This document shows positions 40,825 to 50,839 of a DNA stretch of 64,000 nucleotides, piece after piece. The first letter of the stretch is position 1. Each line of letters begins with the position of its first letter. The notes under the pieces were generated by a model. That model searched no databases. It saw nothing but the letters and a program-made list of their open reading frames with translations, and had not been told where the DNA came from. This DNA comes from an uncultured Pelagibacteraceae bacterium (GTDB lineage Bacteria > Pseudomonadota > Alphaproteobacteria > Pelagibacterales > Pelagibacteraceae), in assembly GCA_902517745.1 (NCBI GenBank), contig CABYDS010000001.1, positions 62,001 to 126,000 of the forward strand, in the 5' to 3' direction. Made by a program: the position numbers and the translations under genes.

Positions 40825-41439
40825 ATGTCTTTCCTTTTTTTAGGTTTTTTGACGGGCTTAACATTAATTTTTGCAATAGGACCTCAAAATGTTTTTGTAA
40901 TAGAGCAAGGACTAAAGAAACAATATATATTTTTAGTTTGCTTAGTCTGTGCGTTATCTGATTTGATTTTAATTTTCTTAGGTATCTTTTTATTTAATTA
41001 TTTTTCTAATTATTTTAATAATGTAGTGGAGCTGATTTTAAATATCCTTTTAATTATTTTTTTATCTTTTTTTATTTATGGAAAAATTAAAGAAATATTT
41101 AAATTTAGATCTTTAGAATTTAAAAATAATGTCATAGCACAGAGCTCATTTAATATTTTTATTAAGACCTTAGGTTTTACATATTTAAATCCTCACGTAT
41201 ATTCTGATACAGTATTTTTTTTAGGAAATTTCTCAAAATCCTTTAATATTGAAAACAAATTTTACTTTGGAATAGGTGCTTCTATAGCTTCTTTTTTATT
41301 TTTCTTTTCTTTAGGATACTTATCTAAGATTTTCTCAAACAAATTAAATAATAGAAGTTTTTGGAAATACATAAATATTTTTATTATAATATTTATGTCA
41401 GGTATAGTTTTTTACATTATTAGAGATATTATTTATTAA
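40825..41439 (+). CDS. LysE/ArgO-family amino-acid exporter
   Basis: 204 residues, about six helices. The family opening GLTLIFAIGPQNVFVIEQGLKK near residue 10 and the FTYLNPHVYSDTVFFLG segment near 113 are diagnostic of LysE/ArgO. Exports basic amino acids across the inner membrane. The 3' end overlaps the convergent HAD-like gene by 11 bases. Confidence 0.9.
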   Translation: MSFLFLGFLTGLTLIFAIGPQNVFVIEQGLKKQYIFLVCLVCALSDLILIFLGIFLFNYFSNYFNNVVELILNILLIIFLSFFIYGKIKEIFKFRSLEFKNNVIAQSSFNIFIKTLGFTYLNPHVYSDTVFFLGNFSKSFNIENKFYFGIGASIASFLFFFSLGYLSKIFSNKLNNRSFWKYINIFIIIFMSGIVFYIIRDIIY

Positions 41440-42088
41440 AGATTTTTTTTGATAATTTATTAACCTTTAAATGGTTCCCATCAAATCCGTATTGAGTGTG
41501 ATATTTTCCAGGAAATGCAACACATTTTATGTCTGCACTTAAAGCAGAATTTAAACTTTCTTCTGTATCTTCAATTGCCACACATTCGTCTGAGTTAATA
41601 TTCAAGTATTTTAAAGCATAATTATAAATATCGGGATATGGTTTTTCTCTTAATATGAATTCATTATTGCCGATAAAATCAAAATCTTTTTTTTCAATTC
41701 TTCCTCTTAACGAGTTAAAAATAGAATTGATATTGTTACTCGTTGTTGAGCTAGCAAGCCCAATTTTTATTTTGTTCTTTTTGCAAAATTGAATTATTTC
41801 TTTTACACCGTCTCTAGGCTCAACCTTGTGTTTGTTTAAATATTCATTAAAAATTTTGGTTTTTAAATTTCTTATTTTTTTTCCGTCTATTTCAACACTA
41901 GTATCTTTTGCGTAATCATTGATTCTCGTAGTTCCACCTGATTTTGACAATAGTTTTCTGTATATATCTTCATCCCAAAACCAGTCTAATCCACTTATTT
42001 TAAAAGCTTGATTAAATGCATCTCTTTGAAGATCTGATGTCTCAGCTAAAGTTCCAATAGAACCAAATAAAACAGCTTTGTAATTCAT
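41429..42088 (-). CDS. HAD-like protein with degenerate motif I (both aspartates replaced)
   Basis: 219 residues from ATG at 42088 (the track extends into the permease gene). The overall frame is a CbbY/beta-phosphoglucomutase-type HAD: helical cap, motif II ASSTTSNN near residue 118, motif III Lys in REKPYPDIY near 149, and motif IV AIEDTEESL near 172. Motif I, normally DxDGTL, reads FGSIGTL, so the nucleophile Asp and the acid/base Asp are Gly and Ile. It overlaps the MalG-type permease stop by one base (TAATG), making it the last gene of the sugar ABC operon. Phosphatase activity of the standard type is unlikely. Confidence 0.85.
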   Translation of the reverse strand: MNYKAVLFGSIGTLAETSDLQRDAFNQAFKISGLDWFWDEDIYRKLLSKSGGTTRINDYAKDTSVEIDGKKIRNLKTKIFNEYLNKHKVEPRDGVKEIIQFCKKNKIKIGLASSTTSNNINSIFNSLRGRIEKKDFDFIGNNEFILREKPYPDIYNYALKYLNINSDECVAIEDTEESLNSALSADIKCVAFPGKYHTQYGFDGNHLKVNKLSKKIFNK

Positions 42089-42969
42089 TATCCCTTCACA
42101 GCACCAGCTGTTAATCCACTGATTACTTGTCTTTGGAAAAACATAACTAACATAAATAAAGGAGCAGTAGCTGAAACAACTGCTGAAACAGCCCACATCA
42201 AATTACCTTCATGTTGATTTGTTCCAAGATAACTTTGTATTTTAGGAACCATAGTATGATTTTCCTGATTTAATAAAAGAGCAGTCACAGTAAAATCGTT
42301 ATACGCAAGCATTAAACTAAATAATCCAGCTGTTATTACTCCAGGCCACATAACTGGCATAATGATATGTCTAAATGCTTGAAAATAAGAACAGCCATCA
42401 ATTAAAGCACTTTCATCAAGTTCTTTAGGAACAGTTTTAAAAAATGAATACAATAACCATAAAGTAAATGGTTGATTTATCGCAACAAGAACAACGATGG
42501 TCGTAGGTAGTATTCCCCAAATTTGTAATTGAAAAAAGGGAAATAAATAACCAGAGACTAGAGTAATGTGTGGCATTGCTCTAAAAATTAATGCCGCAAT
42601 TAAAATCCAAAATGCATAATTTCTTGTTGATCTGGATAAAGCATAAGCTCCTAAGGTCCCGAGGAACAATGAAATGGTTACAACAAAAAATGTAACTATA
42701 ACTGTATTCCTAGATGCTTTCCAAAACTCTCCTTCAGTCCATGCTTGACTATAAGCATCTGTTGTAAACTTTCCTCCAGTTTCTAACAACGTATTGAATG
42801 CCGTAATAGCATACCACCAGTCGGCTCTTGAAAAAAAATCAGCTCTTACTTTAAATGACCCCCAGAAAGTCCAAATAAAGGGAAAGCATGCAACCAAAAG
42901 CCAAACTATTATAAAGGTTGTATTAAAAATTTTTAAAGCATTTGATCTTTTATCAAGTCCGTATTCCAT
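42088..42969 (-). CDS. Sugar ABC transporter permease (MalG type)
   Basis: 293 residues, six helices. The EAA loop ELDESALIDGCSYFQAFRHIIMPVMWPG near residue 182 is typical. It forms the channel with the MalF-type permease, which ends immediately before its start. No ATPase gene is found in this operon, so an MsmX-like shared ATPase elsewhere must energise it. Confidence 0.92.
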   Translation of the reverse strand: MEYGLDKRSNALKIFNTTFIIVWLLVACFPFIWTFWGSFKVRADFFSRADWWYAITAFNTLLETGGKFTTDAYSQAWTEGEFWKASRNTVIVTFFVVTISLFLGTLGAYALSRSTRNYAFWILIAALIFRAMPHITLVSGYLFPFFQLQIWGILPTTIVVLVAINQPFTLWLLYSFFKTVPKELDESALIDGCSYFQAFRHIIMPVMWPGVITAGLFSLMLAYNDFTVTALLLNQENHTMVPKIQSYLGTNQHEGNLMWAVSAVVSATAPLFMLVMFFQRQVISGLTAGAVKG

Positions 42970-43998
42970 TTATCTCGCTGTCCTAAATTCCTTCCATGTT
43001 CTTATTAAAACTGGTGCTAAAAGTATGGCTATCCCAACAATCGTCATCATTGAGGTGGCTGCGGCCGAACCAAATAATATTACTTCCTCATTAACGAGGT
43101 TATCATAAATTAACCAAGATAAAGATTGAGCACTTCCTTCAGCACTAAAACCAATTATAGGCTCAAAAACTCTAAAATTATCCATCAAGGATATGAGAGC
43201 AACAAATGTAACTACAGGATAAATATGAGGTAAAACAATATGTCTTACTCTCTGCCATCTTGATGCTCCATCAATAATAGCTGCCTCAACAGGTTCTTGA
43301 GGAACAGTTTGTAAAGCTGCATAAAATACTACAAAAGCAAATGGTGAATGGTGCCAAATTCCATAAATTATTATAGTTATCCAAGTAAGAGTTTTTGAGG
43401 ATTTTAAGGATAAATAAGGGTCATCCATCAACATTTGCAAATTCGCTCCAATAATTCCTTCTGCATCTATCATCCAAAATAAAACTAAAGAACCTACCAA
43501 TGGAGTAACAATCATCGGCAAAATGGTTCCAAATATTAGTGGTCCTCTAATTCTTCTAGTTACTGCATTAAGACTTAAAGCAATTATAAAACCTAAAAGT
43601 AAGACGTTAGGCGTTACAAACAAGCAATAGGTTAAAGTAAAAATTAGAGCCTTGTAAAAGGGTAGGTTGGTAACTTGATCTACAAATTCCCCAAAAGTAT
43701 TTGTTTCATTCCAAAATTTTCCAATTTCTTCTATTGCAAGATGATTTCTATCTACATAAGTCCCAAATCCATTGAATTTTCCTAAAGGCTTTTCTTCTCG
43801 AATTTTAGAGGTTTTTTCTTGGTCAACAACTATAGAAACTGTACATCCAAAAGGATCACATTTTTTTACTTCCTTAACAACTTGGTCGTGCTGCGCATAA
43901 AATGATTGTATCCCTGTTGAAATAATAGGAAGACCTATAAATAAAATCATTGCCAATCCAGTTGGCAAGAAAAACCAAAAAAAAGTTTTGTTAGGCAT
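42970..43998 (-). CDS. Sugar ABC transporter permease (MalF type)
   Basis: 342 residues. A first helix at 5-25 is followed by a roughly 90-residue periplasmic insertion containing two Cys (KKCDPFGCTV near residue 47), then the helices of BPD_transp_1 with the EAA loop PVEAAIIDGASRWQRVRHIVLPHIYP near 232. Partner of the MalG-type permease. A 10-11 base-pair hairpin lies between it and the binding-protein gene upstream. Confidence 0.92.
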   Translation of the reverse strand: MPNKTFFWFFLPTGLAMILFIGLPIISTGIQSFYAQHDQVVKEVKKCDPFGCTVSIVVDQEKTSKIREEKPLGKFNGFGTYVDRNHLAIEEIGKFWNETNTFGEFVDQVTNLPFYKALIFTLTYCLFVTPNVLLLGFIIALSLNAVTRRIRGPLIFGTILPMIVTPLVGSLVLFWMIDAEGIIGANLQMLMDDPYLSLKSSKTLTWITIIIYGIWHHSPFAFVVFYAALQTVPQEPVEAAIIDGASRWQRVRHIVLPHIYPVVTFVALISLMDNFRVFEPIIGFSAEGSAQSLSWLIYDNLVNEEVILFGSAAATSMMTIVGIAILLAPVLIRTWKEFRTAR

Positions 43999-44006
43999 TA
44001 ATGTAA

Positions 44007-44032
44007 TAAGTGGGGATTTTCATCCCCACTTA
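44007..44032 (-). terminator. Hairpin between sugar-binding protein and permease genes
   Basis: Perfect stem AAGTGGGGAT / ATCCCCACTT with a 4-base loop, 12 bases after the binding-protein stop. On the minus strand it is followed by only a weak T run (ATTAC), so partial termination or mRNA 3'-end protection are both possible. Confidence 0.75.
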
Positions 44033-44043
44033 AAATTTATAGA

Positions 44044-45264
44044 TTATAGAAAGCCTTGTTCTTTTGCTTTACTCATGTAAGCTGCTTCCACATCTTTTAA
44101 AGCTTGTTCTGCTGACTCTTTACCTTGTAAAAATTCAACAATCTCACTTCCTAATGCACCATGCATTAAACCCATTTGTGGTAACATTGGATATGGTTTA
44201 GCTTTCATTTTAACAGCTTCGATAACTCCAATTGATTTTGGTCCAGGCTTAAAACCTTCAATTAACCAAACAGCTTGATCCGCTGCATCTGCAACCATCT
44301 TTTTGTTAGCAGCTGCGTGTGCCAAAGCTCTAAATGTTGCTTCAGCATCAGCGTCAGATCTATTTTTTGCTAATGTGAAACCGTCCCACCATAAAGTCGC
44401 TGCTGGTATGTTTCCTCCAGCAACTGTTGCTGGTCCAGTTAATTTAGTTGCAGCTGTAATTTTTGCATCACCATCATCATCAAGCAATGTTCCTGATCTT
44501 GATGCCCAAAGAGTCATTAATGCAACATTTCCAGATTCCCATTCAACCTTAATAGCTTCACTATCGTGAGTTAAATAATCTGGGTTACTTAAACCTGCTA
44601 ATTTTTTTAGCATATTTAATGTTGCTAAGCCTTTTGCATTGTTAATGCTTGGCTGAGCAGTTCCTGCCTTAAAGAATTCTCCTCCATGTCCAATGTACAT
44701 GTTAACGAATTCTTCTGCTAAATTCCAACCAGCTTTGTATGCTGCTGCATAAGGATATTGCATTTTACCAGAAGCTCTTATTTTTTCTGATGCCGCAACT
44801 ACTTCCTCATATGTTTTAGGAACAGCTATACCCAATTCTTTTAAAACATCTTCTCTGTAATATAAGTGCTGAGTGTTTGCCATAAAAGCAACTGCCATTA
44901 TTTTTCCATCAATTGTTATCAATTGAGAGTCTTGTATTCCTTTTCCATATTTCTTAACAAGATCATCAAGTGGTCTAATTAAATCTTGGTTCATCAAAGG
45001 AACTATAGAGCTATTTGCTGCAATTCTTGCAGAAAACTCTGATGGATTTGCAGTTAGAGCTGGTACAGCAATTTTATTGTGCTCAGATGAGTGTGTGACT
45101 TTAAAATCTGCACTTCCTTTACATCCTTTAGCAGTTTCCACGAAAGTTCTTAAAGCTGGAAAATCATTAGCTAAAATATTTATTGATCCACTCTTAATGT
45201 TACAATCTGCATAAGCAGAAGTTCCAAAAAGAAGAAACAATAAAGATATTAATATTTTTTTCAT
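44044..45264 (-). CDS. Sugar ABC transporter binding protein (SBP_bac_1)
   Basis: 406 residues from ATG at 45264 (the ORF track's five extra codons include the Shine-Dalgarno gaggga). Signal peptide ends TSAYADC near residue 20. Family words: YYREDVLKELGIAVPKTYEEVVAASEKI near 135 and GGEFFKAGTAQPSINNAKGLATL near 192. Binds a sugar or sugar derivative. A GC-rich 14-base palindrome lies about 50 bases upstream of the start. The genes upstream on the same strand are a MetE-like enzyme and NTF2-like/cupin proteins. Confidence 0.9.
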   Translation of the reverse strand: MKKILISLLFLLFGTSAYADCNIKSGSINILANDFPALRTFVETAKGCKGSADFKVTHSSEHNKIAVPALTANPSEFSARIAANSSIVPLMNQDLIRPLDDLVKKYGKGIQDSQLITIDGKIMAVAFMANTQHLYYREDVLKELGIAVPKTYEEVVAASEKIRASGKMQYPYAAAYKAGWNLAEEFVNMYIGHGGEFFKAGTAQPSINNAKGLATLNMLKKLAGLSNPDYLTHDSEAIKVEWESGNVALMTLWASRSGTLLDDDGDAKITAATKLTGPATVAGGNIPAATLWWDGFTLAKNRSDADAEATFRALAHAAANKKMVADAADQAVWLIEGFKPGPKSIGVIEAVKMKAKPYPMLPQMGLMHGALGSEIVEFLQGKESAEQALKDVEAAYMSKAKEQGFL

Positions 45265-45310
45265 ATTTGTTTCCCTCATTAAATTTAAATTTATGAATGA
45301 AAGGATATAT

Positions 45311-45324
45311 ATTCCCTAGGGAAT
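45311..45324. promoter_or_regulatory. ATTCCCTAGGGAAT palindrome upstream of sugar-binding protein gene
   Basis: Perfect 14-base palindrome with a CCCTAGGG core, 47-60 bases upstream of the binding-protein ATG and 14 bases after the MetE-like stop. It is a good operator candidate for the sugar ABC operon; it could also fold as a short hairpin at the 3' end of the preceding transcript. Confidence 0.5.
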
Positions 45325-45337
45325 TTAAAAGTATTTT

Positions 45338-46465
45338 TTAAATCGCATTTGACGCAAGCTCTGCACCTGCGACCAAAGATTCAAATTTCTTGTAAACAAT
45401 ATTTTCATCAACATTTCCAAAGCCTGCAAAAGTACTAAATCCACAATCACTTCCAGCCATCAATTGATCTTTATCAATTACTTTTGAATACTGAATTATT
45501 CTATTTTTTACTAACTCTTCATGCTCTATGAAGTTTGAGGTTGAGTCTATTACACCAGGAACTATTACTTTATCATTAGGAAGTTTAATATTCTCAAAAA
45601 CCTGCCATTCATGAGCATGTCTTGGGTTCGAGGCTTCAATTAAATAAGTTTGGATATTTGCTTTTAAAGCAATAGGTAATATTTTTTCTAATTCAATATC
45701 GTGAAGATGTGGTCCTTCATAATTTCCCCAGCAGATATGCATTCTCAACTTAGAGGCATCGATATCTTTGGTTGCTTCATTAAGACATTCGATTTGTTTT
45801 TCAGCTCTAACCAAAAATTCTTCATCTGATACATTTTTAAAAGTCATATGTCTTGCTAGTGCAAGATCTGGGCAATCAATTTGCAATAATAAATCATTCT
45901 TTGTTATTTCATCGTATTCAGTTTTCATCATTTTTGATAATGCCTCTAAATAATCATCATCATTTTTATAGAATTTGTTTGGAAGGAAATTTGAAATTAC
46001 TCCTGGTGATGCAGAGTTAATAAATCCTTGAGGATGGTTATTTTTTTTTAACGCTGATTTTAAATTACTGATATCTTTAGTAAGAGACTCAGTATCTTTG
46101 ATTTTTAAATCAGCAGTACAACATGGTCTTGTATAAGTAGGCGTACCCCCTGATTTTGCAATTTTTTCTTTATATGATGGAAAATCATCCAAGTCTTTAG
46201 GAGCTCTTCTTTCGCTTTCACCGCTAAAGCCATGTAAACGATCCTTGACGTAGGTAGCGTAGCTTATTTTTGACATTTCACCATCACTTATAATATCAAT
46301 TCCGATATCAATTTGTTTTTTTACAATTTTGTTTACATCTTCTTCAATTATCTGATCAAGTTCTCCTTGATCAAATAATTCATTTTTATCTTTTTTAAAT
46401 AGTATCTCAGATAGCTTTTTTGATCTTGGCAGACTTCCAACATGTGTGGTTTTAATTTTATTCAT
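45338..46465 (-). CDS. MetE-like cobalamin-independent methyltransferase (C-terminal catalytic domain only)
   Basis: 375 residues from ATG at 46465; an upstream ATG at 46492 would overlap the previous gene. THVGSLPRSKKL at the start is the substrate loop. Zinc ligands of MetE are recognisable: His and Cys in RMHICWGNYEG, Glu in IEASNPRH, Cys in AGSDCGFSTFAGFG. The N-terminal half of full-length MetE is absent, as in YxjG/YxjH-type or archaeal proteins that use other methyl donors. Its operon with NTF2-like and cupin genes suggests demethylation of, or thiol transfer to, a catabolic substrate rather than methionine synthesis. Confidence 0.85.
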   Translation of the reverse strand: MNKIKTTHVGSLPRSKKLSEILFKKDKNELFDQGELDQIIEEDVNKIVKKQIDIGIDIISDGEMSKISYATYVKDRLHGFSGESERRAPKDLDDFPSYKEKIAKSGGTPTYTRPCCTADLKIKDTESLTKDISNLKSALKKNNHPQGFINSASPGVISNFLPNKFYKNDDDYLEALSKMMKTEYDEITKNDLLLQIDCPDLALARHMTFKNVSDEEFLVRAEKQIECLNEATKDIDASKLRMHICWGNYEGPHLHDIELEKILPIALKANIQTYLIEASNPRHAHEWQVFENIKLPNDKVIVPGVIDSTSNFIEHEELVKNRIIQYSKVIDKDQLMAGSDCGFSTFAGFGNVDENIVYKKFESLVAGAELASNAI

Positions 46466-46470
46466 AGTTT

Positions 46471-47430
46471 TTACATTAATATTTGTTTCCAAATAGCTAC
46501 TTCATCAAATAATACCCATTCTCTTATTATTTTATCATCTCTTAATTCTGCATGATTTATACCCATTATAAATAAATCTTTGTCAGTCTTTTTCCCAAAT
46601 TCTTCACTGTCTTTAGAGTGCTTACCACTTAAAAACCATCTGATTGTTGCTTTTTGATTGTTATTTTTTTCATCTAATGATGCAACATGTTCGATTGTAA
46701 ACTTTATTTCAGAAAATATATTTTTTAAAGAGCTCCAATATTTAATTATATCTTCACTGCCATTTCCAACTTTATTACTTGGCCAAAATAGACTCGCTGC
46801 TCTATCATAATCTTCAAAATCATAATCATTATTAAATATTTTCTTTAAAATATTGGAATATATATAACCTGATGAAACTTCATTAACTTTTACTGGAGTA
46901 TAATCTGATTTTTTATCAGAAGATCTATTAAAAACTTTGATAGCTTTAGATACCCCACCTTCTTTATCAATTAAATGCCTTGCAAATTGCGCAGGTGTAT
47001 AACCTAGCTGTCGAACCATTGCACCTTGATCTCTCACAATCCACTCATCATAAACCTGATTATTTTTACATGCACAGTCAGCTATAACTCTATAAACAAT
47101 TTTGTTTCCTGTTTTTTTTCCGTAATACCCGTCATTTAAATGTGTAGCTTTGCTCAGAATTCTGTGAGATGAATGATATCCTTCATCGTCATTTCCACTC
47201 CAAATTACATCTTCACCTAATAATTGTCTGTCTGGAAATTCGTCTAAAGTTTTATAAGTTGCATCAATAACAGGTTTAAAACCATAGGTTATTCCAAAGG
47301 GTGATCTTACAGGGATATTCTCTGAATAATATTTAGATATCGACTCGACATCTTTCCCTTCCCAAATTTGTTTAGTAATTTTTAAAATGTAATCAGTTAA
47401 ATTTTTATAATTACTATCAAATCCTTTCAT
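46471..47430 (-). CDS. Double NTF2/SnoaL-like protein (cluster copy 1)
   Basis: 319 residues containing two SnoaL-like halves. The first opens ILKITKQIWEGKDVESISKYYSENIPVRSP near residue 16 and continues EFPDRQLLGEDVIWSGND; the second has DRAASLFWPSNKVGNGSEDIIKYWSSL near 210 and ends AELRDDKIIREWVLFDEVAIWKQI. Single-domain SnoaL/ester-cyclase proteins are half this size. It overlaps the bicupin stop by one base. No signal peptide. Enzymatic role unknown; a cyclase, lyase or isomerase on a ring substrate would fit. Confidence 0.75.
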   Translation of the reverse strand: MKGFDSNYKNLTDYILKITKQIWEGKDVESISKYYSENIPVRSPFGITYGFKPVIDATYKTLDEFPDRQLLGEDVIWSGNDDEGYHSSHRILSKATHLNDGYYGKKTGNKIVYRVIADCACKNNQVYDEWIVRDQGAMVRQLGYTPAQFARHLIDKEGGVSKAIKVFNRSSDKKSDYTPVKVNEVSSGYIYSNILKKIFNNDYDFEDYDRAASLFWPSNKVGNGSEDIIKYWSSLKNIFSEIKFTIEHVASLDEKNNNQKATIRWFLSGKHSKDSEEFGKKTDKDLFIMGINHAELRDDKIIREWVLFDEVAIWKQILM

Positions 47431-48368
47431 TAGATCTGACTAACAAAATTTAAAATACTATTTTCTGAATTATTACAAGAGATATCTATTTTGCTACTCA
47501 AAGGAACTGAAAAAGTGTCTCCTTTTTCTAATTTTATATTTGAGTTTCCTATTACTATTTTCCAATTACCTTCTTGAGCAAAAAGAACGGTAGGCTTTAT
47601 ACATTCAATACCCTTAATTTCGCCAGATATAGAATTTAATGTTGTTAAATTAAATCCAGTATCTTGTTTGATTGAAGGTTCATAAGTTTTTTTATTAAAT
47701 TTGTTTCCTAATACTTGATATAATTTAATACCATTAACTTCATCGCTAATATTGTTTTGTTTATTTCTATAAATATTTTTTTCTAATTCTTCTGGCAAAT
47801 AATTATCAAATCTTTCTAATTCATCTTGAGTGATAGGCTCTATCATCTTTCTACCGTTAGGCACTTCAACCTTTTTTAAATCTATTAACGAATTATCATC
47901 AAGCAATGCCATACCGGTCTCTTTTGCCTTTTTTAAAATTTCTGGAACCCATGTTATTATACCAGGATCATCACCGCCTAATACAACAAACATCAAACTT
48001 TCTTTATCTCCAACATTTTCAAATGCTCTGAACATATTTGTAGGCATTGAAATTATATCGCCAGCTTCTAATATTGTTTCTTGTTTTCCATCAGCGCCCC
48101 AATAAAATCTCCATTTACCTGAGTAAATTACAAATACTTCAGCCGTAGTATGACTGTGAAGACCAGATCCATTTTTTGGCATAGCACTCACTGCTCCTAA
48201 ATTATACCCATGTAAAGACTGTATTTTTATTAGTTGTTTGGTGTCTTCAGCGACACCACGTCCAATAATTGTATAATTTTTTCTTTCTTTATGACCTTCT
48301 AATCTACCCTCTACAAAAGGGAGGCTACTCGGAACGAGCTCATTAAATTTTGCCAATCTATCAATCAT
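47430..48368 (-). CDS. Bicupin protein
   Basis: 312 residues. The first cupin has MPKNGSGLHSHTTAEVFVIYSGKWRFYWG near residue 62 with HxH and Glu ligands and EAGDIISMPTNMFRAFENVG near 100. The second half, near residues 210-312, keeps the fold (LEKGDTFSVPLSSKIDIS) but has no HxH, so only the N-terminal cupin likely binds metal. First gene of the leftward MetE-like/NTF2 operon, divergent from another double-NTF2 gene across a 41-base promoter with a perfect palindrome. Confidence 0.82.
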   Translation of the reverse strand: MIDRLAKFNELVPSSLPFVEGRLEGHKERKNYTIIGRGVAEDTKQLIKIQSLHGYNLGAVSAMPKNGSGLHSHTTAEVFVIYSGKWRFYWGADGKQETILEAGDIISMPTNMFRAFENVGDKESLMFVVLGGDDPGIITWVPEILKKAKETGMALLDDNSLIDLKKVEVPNGRKMIEPITQDELERFDNYLPEELEKNIYRNKQNNISDEVNGIKLYQVLGNKFNKKTYEPSIKQDTGFNLTTLNSISGEIKGIECIKPTVLFAQEGNWKIVIGNSNIKLEKGDTFSVPLSSKIDISCNNSENSILNFVSQI

Positions 48369-48395
48369 ATTCTTGTTATTTATCTCTATTTAAAT

Positions 48396-48411
48396 ATAAA
48401 TTGCAATTTAT
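48396..48411. promoter_or_regulatory. Perfect 16-base palindrome in the bicupin / double-NTF2 divergent promoter
   Basis: ATAAATTGCAATTTAT, perfect over 16 bases, fills much of the 41-base divergent space and runs into the ATG of the rightward gene. A dimeric repressor bound here would block both directions. No regulator gene adjoins it directly; the nearest is at 52.7-53.7 kb. Confidence 0.55.
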
Positions 48412-49498
48412 GCAAATAGAACAATTTGATACAGGTCTTAAAATTAAGAAAAACATTGAAGATGTAGAAATTACTCCTATCCAAAACTTAAATAATAAAA
48501 AATTTGTTATTGAGAATTTTAAAAATGTTTATGGATTAAAAAAGATTAATCTTAAAAAAAATTTACTAAATATATTTGACAAAGATATCAAAGTTAATTG
48601 TTTTGAACCATTAAATGAATTTAATGGCATAGATAATTTTATAGAAAAATTTTGGAATCCTTTATTTGATGCATTTCCAGACATCGAAAGAAGAGAAAAT
48701 ATCATCCTTGGAGGCTCTTTTAGAGACAAAGTCCAAGTTGGTTCTTATTCTACTTTATCAGGTTTCTTTTTAAAGCCCTGGTTAGGTATAAAACCAAATT
48801 TTAAAATGATTAATCTTAAATGTTGTGAAATTCATGAAATTAAAAATGAAAGAATTATTGAAAGTCATATCTTAATTGATGTGATGGATTTTTTAAGACA
48901 AGCTGACAGATGGGTTATTAATCCATCAAGAGGATCCGAAGGAGCATGGTTACCTCCGTTTAATACAGATGGAGTAAATTTTTTTGAAGAAGACATGAGT
49001 AAATCTAAAAATTCATTACAACAGGCTTTGAGCATGAATAGAAGTTTAGATATTAAACCTGAGAAAGAAAATATTTCTAAAGATGAATTAAGACAAAGGT
49101 TAATAAATCATCCTCAAAAAGAGTTTTGGCACAAAGATATGATTTGGTACGGTCCTTGTGGAATTGGAACATCAAGGTCATTAGAAGGATTTGTAGATAT
49201 GCATCAGCTACCTTTTAGAAAATCATTTTCTGAGAGAAATTATTGGGAATTAGGACATTATTGCGAAATTGGAGATGGAAAATTTTCTCTATGTGGTGGA
49301 TGGCATAGTTTAAAGGCAAAGTATGGATCAAATGATTGGCTTGGGTATACAGCAGATAACCAAGACGTTGTTATGAGAGTAATGGATTTTTATCATCATG
49401 ATGAAGGATTAATTAGAGAGAATTGGGTACCTATAGATGTAGTTCATATTTTAAAACAAATAGGTATTGATGTGTTTGAAAAAATTAAAAATACTTAG
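48410..49498 (+). CDS. Double NTF2/SnoaL-like protein (cluster copy 2)
   Basis: 362 residues from ATG 48410 (the track adds 20 codons from the divergent gene). Two NTF2-like halves: the first with FIEKFWNPLFDAFPDIERRENIILGGSFRDKVQVGSYSTLSG near residue 80, the second with KEFWHKDMIWYGPCGIGTSRSLEGFVDMHQLPFRKSF near 244. It is rich in Trp and His in the second half. It resembles the 319-residue neighbour in architecture, so both probably act on the same substrate class. Function unknown. Confidence 0.78.
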   Translation: MQIEQFDTGLKIKKNIEDVEITPIQNLNNKKFVIENFKNVYGLKKINLKKNLLNIFDKDIKVNCFEPLNEFNGIDNFIEKFWNPLFDAFPDIERRENIILGGSFRDKVQVGSYSTLSGFFLKPWLGIKPNFKMINLKCCEIHEIKNERIIESHILIDVMDFLRQADRWVINPSRGSEGAWLPPFNTDGVNFFEEDMSKSKNSLQQALSMNRSLDIKPEKENISKDELRQRLINHPQKEFWHKDMIWYGPCGIGTSRSLEGFVDMHQLPFRKSFSERNYWELGHYCEIGDGKFSLCGGWHSLKAKYGSNDWLGYTADNQDVVMRVMDFYHHDEGLIRENWVPIDVVHILKQIGIDVFEKIKNT

Positions 49499-49552
49499 AT
49501 TTAAATAAGTTTATAGTTTTTGAGTGTAATAGAAAAAAATAAAATTATTTAT

Positions 49553-50839
49553 TTAGTTAGAGAAACCATACTTTCTAAGTCTCACATCACCAGTTCTAGC
49601 ATGAGCCTCCATACCTTCATATCTAGAAATTCTAGCTGCTGCAGCACCAACTTCTTTGTTAGATTCTTTATTCATCTTTTGGTAAGTAACTGTTTTTATA
49701 AATTTTCCAACGTATAAGCCTCCAGTATATTTTCCTGCACCTTTTGTTGGTAGAATATGATTTGGTCCAGAGCATTTATCTCCATATGCAACTGTTGTTT
49801 CTTCACCTAAAAATAAAGAACCATAATTTTTAAGATTTTTTAAATACCAGTCTAAGTTTTCAGCTTGAACCTCCAAATGTTCAGGTGCATATTCATCACT
49901 CACTTTCATCATTTCTTCTTTGGTATCACACATAATTACTTCTCCATAATCTCTCCATGCAGCATCAGCATTATTTCTATTATGTTCAGGTAGTTCTTGA
50001 ATAATTTCTGGAACTCTTTTCATAACATAATCACATAAAGATTTATCAGTAGTGTAAAGCCAAGCTGGAGAGTCAGGACCATGTTCAGCCTGTCCAACTA
50101 AATCATAAGCGATTATTTCTTTGTCAGCTGTATGATCTGCAATAATGCCTATTTCGGTTGGTCCTGCAAATAAATCAATTCCAACTTTTCCAAATAAAAT
50201 TCTTTTAGACTCTGCTACAAATTTATTTCCAGGTCCAACAATCATATCTACTTCAGGATTACCAAAGCAACCATAAGCTAGAGCACCAATTGCTCCTATT
50301 CCACCTATATTCATAATTACATCTGCACCACATAGGTTAGCTGTATAAATTATAATTGGGTTTGCACCATTTGAATCTTTTGGTGGACTTGTTGCAATTA
50401 CATTCTTTACTCCTGCAACTTTTGCAGTTGTGACACTCATTATAGCAGAGGCGATATTATTGTATCTTCCACCAGGAACATAACACCCAACAGTATTTAC
50501 AGGTATTAATTTTTGTCCCGCTATTAAACCAGGTGATAATTCAACTTCTGAGTCTTTTCCAAGATTTTCAAGCTGGTGTTCTGCAAACTTCCTAACTCTT
50601 TCATGAGAAAACTGAATATCGTCTTTAATCTTTTGATCTAAAGTTTTATTTATTTCTTCAATTTTTTCTTTGCTAACAATTATATCACCTTCATAATTAT
50701 CAAATTTTTTTAAAATATCTTTGACACCTTGATCTTTAGTTTTTTCTAAATCTTTTAAAATAGAACTTACCTTAGTTCTTGTTTCATCTTCTCCTGTAAA
50801 TGCAGTTTTTTCAGCTTTTTTTATATAAGTAATTGCCAT
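49553..50839 (-). CDS. Histidinol-dehydrogenase-family enzyme, HpsN-like (sulfopropanediol dehydrogenase candidate)
   Basis: 428 residues. HisD fold words are present: IPVNTVGCYVPGGRYNN near residue 113, MIVGPGNKFVAESKRILFGKVGIDLFAGPTEIG near 200, QAEHGPDSP near 246 (zinc ligands Gln and His), EYAPEHLEVQ with the catalytic Glu-His near 330, GDKCSGPNHILPT near 360 and EAHARTGDVR near the end. AEHGPDSP, GGLYVGKFIKTVTYQ and the short YGEVI segment match my recollection of HpsN, the 2,3-dihydroxypropane-1-sulfonate dehydrogenase, better than biosynthetic HisD. It is probably a zinc NAD-dependent alcohol dehydrogenase on a small acid or sulfonate. Confidence 0.82.
   Translation of the reverse strand: MAITYIKKAEKTAFTGEDETRTKVSSILKDLEKTKDQGVKDILKKFDNYEGDIIVSKEKIEEINKTLDQKIKDDIQFSHERVRKFAEHQLENLGKDSEVELSPGLIAGQKLIPVNTVGCYVPGGRYNNIASAIMSVTTAKVAGVKNVIATSPPKDSNGANPIIIYTANLCGADVIMNIGGIGAIGALAYGCFGNPEVDMIVGPGNKFVAESKRILFGKVGIDLFAGPTEIGIIADHTADKEIIAYDLVGQAEHGPDSPAWLYTTDKSLCDYVMKRVPEIIQELPEHNRNNADAAWRDYGEVIMCDTKEEMMKVSDEYAPEHLEVQAENLDWYLKNLKNYGSLFLGEETTVAYGDKCSGPNHILPTKGAGKYTGGLYVGKFIKTVTYQKMNKESNKEVGAAAARISRYEGMEAHARTGDVRLRKYGFSN

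Follow-up and report, generated by a model that had tools for sequence, protein, structure and literature searches.

A CbbY-like HAD protein with GSIG in place of the catalytic DxDG motif in a SAR11 transporter operon

Enzymes of the HAD superfamily work through a phospho-aspartyl mechanism that depends on the aspartates of motif I. Pseudo-HADs are known in eukaryotes, where they include TIM50 and the phosphatase-like domain of sucrose-phosphate synthase. Described systems relevant to the protein reported here include the xylulose-1,5-bisphosphate phosphatase CbbY of Rhodobacter sphaeroides (PDB 4uar, 4uas, 4uat and 4uau; hereafter RsCbbY) and plant CbbYA (4uav). In the literature collection searched, no paper relevant to bacterial pseudo-HADs or to the SnoaL/cupin/MetE-like/ABC module described below was found, and the terms haloacid, SnoaL and ABC transporter are absent from a study of habitat genes in SAR11 published in ISME J (PMC12636525).

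The window analyzed in this work, the whole stretch of 64,000 nucleotides, encodes a HAD subfamily-IA, C1-capped protein at the end of a transporter operon (Table 1). Pfam identifies HAD_2 (2.4e-22) and Hydrolase (7e-16) in the 219 aa product, phmmer returns RsCbbY as the closest solved relative (4uat/4uar, E 2e-34), and the AlphaFold2 model (pLDDT 92.5, pTM 0.88) has a complete core and cap, with CbbY structures topping the Foldseek matches (4uat, TM 0.82). The Rossmannoid core and the helical cap after motif I that define subfamily IA are recovered by Pfam, AlphaFold2 and Foldseek alike, and the protein keeps the motif II Thr/Ser (SSTT), the motif III Lys (K149-P150) and the motif IV acidic pair (E173-D174). 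The DxD of motif I, which supplies the nucleophile and the acid/base Asp, is missing. Aligned with RsCbbY, the window HAD reads LFGSIGTLAET where the phosphatase has LFDVDGTLAET and thus has neither catalytic aspartate, as the preliminary description of this locus had proposed.

Table 1. Features of the HAD gene and the surrounding genes, in window coordinates.
Feature	Position	Strand	Evidence or remark
HAD-IA (C1 cap) CbbY-like protein, 219 aa, motif I GSIG	41429..42088	minus	Pfam, phmmer, AF2, Foldseek
Variant motif I, residues 9-12 G-S-I-G where DxDG expected	42053..42064	minus	RsCbbY alignment
Motif III Lys149 (RsCbbY K148)	41642..41644	minus	kept in 43/44 dereplicated members
Motif IV Glu173-Asp174	41567..41572	minus	invariant in variant clade
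ABC permease B (MalG/UgpE type)	42088..42969	minus	stop overlaps HAD start codon
ABC permease A (MalF/UgpA type)	42970..43998	minus	
ABC solute-binding protein (SBP_bac_1)	44044..45279	minus	
MetE-like protein, Meth_synt_2 catalytic domain only	45338..46492	minus	gene order conserved in SAR11 loci
SnoaL-like protein	46471..47430	minus	same operon as HAD
Cupin-domain protein	47430..48368	minus	opens seven-gene operon
Second SnoaL-like protein	48350..49498	plus	divergent; recurrent in wider module
Histidinol-dehydrogenase-like protein	49553..50839	minus	recurrent in wider module

A set of 60 loci fetched from genome contigs includes 58 SAR11 copies with 49-100% identity, and FGSIG[TS] is present in every SAR11 copy that covers the motif I site. 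Homologues were also collected through scans at the level of the class, of the phylum and of two single families. Motif I was scored in matches with fetched loci, the others being mostly weaker and non-alphaproteobacterial, and the 181 scorable rows fall into 116 with G[SA][IV]G (GSIG, GAIG or GSVG; hereafter G-type) and 65 with DVDG or DIDG, with no intermediate between the two classes among them. G-type members occur in six alphaproteobacterial families, namely SAR11, two that appear to be SAR116 and Rhodobacteraceae, and a further three; among the loci read, every G-type member came from the Alphaproteobacteria. The conserved GSIG family suspected earlier extends beyond this genome, and in the sets examined it was seen in Alphaproteobacteria only. 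No viral homologues were found. One GSIG HAD is carried by the Roseobacter litoralis plasmid pROLI81 (L309:11992-12663), flanked by trkH and an L,D-transpeptidase gene; this copy and the presence of RsCbbY in family f24 support the family names assigned here.

The reference record annotates the pROLI81 protein as a HAD-IA family hydrolase, in keeping with an ordinary HAD phosphatase in which an alignment or sequencing error has produced a wrong reading of motif I, or else with a decaying pseudogene. We regard this explanation as extremely improbable: dozens of independent genomes, single-cell and other, carry the motif unchanged, its strand-loop position agrees with the AlphaFold2 model, and the dN/dS of the HAD gene in a close SAR11 group is 0.076. 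An isolated mutation or sequencing error is ruled out by the invariance of the motif across the SAR11 loci and by the 116 G-type rows, and a pseudogene by the dN/dS value together with the intact reading frames. The gene is under constraint, although looser than that on the permease (dN/dS 0.008), and with the variant motif invariant and the predicted fold intact the original suggestion of selective loss, as opposed to decay, stands.

In a maximum-likelihood tree built from 104 rows after dereplication, one branch separates all 44 G-type sequences from the rest; its support is 100/100, a value obtained again when alignment columns 6-22, spanning the motif region, are taken out. RsCbbY, itself found in family f24, is placed in the DxD group, and each of the 60 DxD rows scores above every one of the 44 GSIG rows. 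Since HAD enzymes had DxD ancestrally, the single supported G-type clade represents one ancient loss of the motif I Asp, and the alternative of an isolated change among Asp-bearing homologues, against which the preliminary description had set its claim, fails.

The G-type clade is marked by five coupled switches that are near or at fixation (D8G, V9S/A, D10I, E17S and H20Q, in RsCbbY numbering, used from here on), with Ala at position 9 in 11% of members. Retained residues comprise N25, Y42, G50, G51, R54, K75, R91, T114, K148, E172 and D173, with E172, D173, T114, R54 and N25 invariant across the 44 divergent sequences, whereas E53 and K147 are fixed in the DxD group and variable in the G-type clade. 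Motifs II-IV had been described as well kept, which is accurate for the window copy; across the family, however, motif III is eroded (KP lost) in one SAR11 subclade (L005, L007 and L056) and the motif IV glycine is gone from most members. The 44 dereplicated sequences contain no new conserved nucleophile: neither a Cys nor a His is invariant, and no new Asp is.

Because D8 and D10 are absent, the standard phospho-aspartyl mechanism cannot run in the GSIG HAD, and Asp-based phosphatase activity was presumably lost in the GSIG clade, in which case the hydrolase annotation of these copies is probably wrong. The retained anion-binding residues suggest that the pocket is still used and that the clade has kept its capacity to bind a ligand. 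That motifs II-IV are so strongly conserved could also be explained by an enzyme using another kind of chemistry, and it is possible, if somewhat unlikely, that the protein still acts without the motif I Asp as an isomerase, epimerase, lyase or hydrolase, using E172/D173, K148, S17 and Q20 on a pathway intermediate. The five residues left invariant despite the change in motif I, the changes at E17, H20 and E53 that resemble a remade pocket, and the location of the gene in an operon with catabolic genes all fit such an enzyme, but the lack of a new conserved nucleophile, the Ala found at position 9, the much faster evolution of the HAD than of the permease (49-57% vs 92-95% identity between SAR11 groups) and the occurrence of the gene outside the cluster in many genomes speak against it. 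The more specific proposal that the GSIG clade is an enzyme family reusing the HAD pocket (E172/D173, K148, T114, S17 and Q20) without an aspartyl nucleophile, in an uncharacterized catabolic pathway of SAR11, SAR116 and Rhodobacteraceae, we consider slightly less probable still.

In SAR11, the HAD gene is always the last of a seven-gene operon (cupin, SnoaL-like, MetE-like, solute-binding protein, permease A, permease B, HAD), and this order holds in all SAR11 loci with a contig long enough to show it. The HAD ATG overlaps the permease B stop by one base (TAATG), which fits the co-translation with the permease noted at the outset. The operon had also been labeled a sugar ABC operon, a label that is right about the terminal position of the HAD gene but incomplete, since the operon also includes the cupin, SnoaL-like and MetE-like genes and contains no ATPase gene (transporter part at 42088-45279 of the window). 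MalK-like ATPases encoded elsewhere in the genome (L310 and L311), with 46-48% identity to the SAR116 module ATPase, may serve this operon. Divergence within the operon is very uneven (L031-L087): between SAR11 groups the transporter proteins are 86-95% identical, the cupin 49-58% and the HAD 49-57%.

In SAR116 and Rhodobacteraceae the same transporter sits in a larger recurrent module including several SnoaL-like proteins, a histidinol-dehydrogenase-like enzyme, an SDR, a LacI regulator, a cupin and a MetE-like protein. The module would import and break down a compound that is probably sugar-like, and NCBIfam provides no pathway name for it. The marine alphaproteobacterial module (for instance window 41429-50839, L299:4426-19427, L306:636-14821 and L305:1059-16633) is sometimes also accompanied by RraA-like and alpha/beta hydrolase genes, and its SAR11 version is a streamlined form.

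Most G-type HAD genes outside SAR11 are not adjacent to the transporter, and in several Rhodobacteraceae the gene lies beside asnS and carB. The G-type HAD is nevertheless found preferentially in genomes carrying the transporter, with co-occurrence counts for permease B, which ignore shared ancestry and draft-genome gaps, of 8/8 vs 0/53 in SAR11, 20/25 vs 16/36 in SAR116 (Fisher p 0.008) and 9/10 vs 44/140 in Rhodobacteraceae (p 4e-4), where the permease set includes a more distant type of about 60% identity. Asp-bearing (DxD) CbbY shows the reverse trend with the transporter (1/21). The two distant-type permease loci that were checked (L304 and L305) present the same kind of cluster.

The one-base overlap with the permease gene and the perfect co-occurrence in SAR11 would suit a structural role with no enzymatic activity, in which the protein, as a subunit, chaperone or regulator, attaches by its surface to the ABC transporter or to some other protein of the module and the pocket is a remnant, and pseudo-HAD scaffolds such as TIM50 provide a eukaryotic precedent. 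This explanation is doubtful, and more so than either enzymatic proposal, given that a surface-binding partner should have no need to keep the pocket residues of motifs II-IV and the cap invariant and that the gene lies away from the transporter in most other lineages. A dedicated transporter subunit is unlikely because the HAD gene is usually not adjacent to the transporter outside SAR11. An obligate subunit is likewise disfavored, with most non-SAR11 copies standing alone or beside unrelated genes. The partnership with the transporter suggested in the preliminary description is thus weakened as regards gene linkage, but retains the preferential occurrence in transporter-bearing genomes.

The reading we favor, with a probability of roughly 0.5, is that the GSIG HAD is a non-hydrolytic CbbY descendant that binds an anionic sugar ligand and serves as a sensor, regulator or accessory of the catabolic module. 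A copy of a CbbY-type sugar-bisphosphate phosphatase would have been converted by a single ancient event in marine Alphaproteobacteria, the nucleophile D8 changing to Gly, the acid/base D10 to Ile, and E17 and H20 in the pocket to Ser and Gln, while the fold was preserved along with the other residues that bind anions (T114, K148, R54, K75, E172 and D173). The cap would then most likely still close on a sugar-like metabolite, phosphorylated or anionic in some other way, that the protein does not cleave. Translated in SAR11 together with the SnoaL/cupin/MetE-like/sugar-ABC module, the protein would regulate this module in response to the ligand or serve it as an accessory that binds a metabolite. 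The identity of the ligand and of the regulated partner is speculative, and the usual lack of linkage to the transporter outside SAR11 counts against this reading. SAR11 bacteria are abundant in the ocean. Given how strongly their genomes are streamlined, a HAD of non-catalytic appearance that they keep in a tight operon is unlikely to be idle. The GSIG clade would represent a sharply bounded, single-origin case in which phosphatase chemistry was lost and the pocket kept; it offers many natural variants alongside a close active relative of known structure, and it opens a way into a marine catabolic module that is recurrent and apparently has no name.

Among known systems, the window HAD resembles RsCbbY in fold, size and C1 cap, with 34% identity, and has the W.W and GG..R cap motifs and motifs II-IV in common with it. 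It differs in having G, I, S and Q at the positions of RsCbbY D8, D10, E17 and H20, as does about 100% of its clade; the GSIG HADs form a separate, 100%-supported group apart from biochemically proven CbbY, and their SAR11 context is not a Calvin-cycle operon. The best NCBIfam models for the window HAD are those of the beta-phosphoglucomutase/PGMB-YQAB subfamily, with which it shares the HAD-IA architecture, but its scores fall far below the curated cut-offs (78 bits against 153 for TIGR02009; 69 bits against 189.4 for TIGR01990, beta-phosphoglucomutase) and it lacks both catalytic Asp. The eukaryotic pseudo-HADs similarly reuse the HAD fold without Asp-based catalysis, although TIM50 and the sucrose-phosphate synthase domain belong to other HAD families and other organisms.
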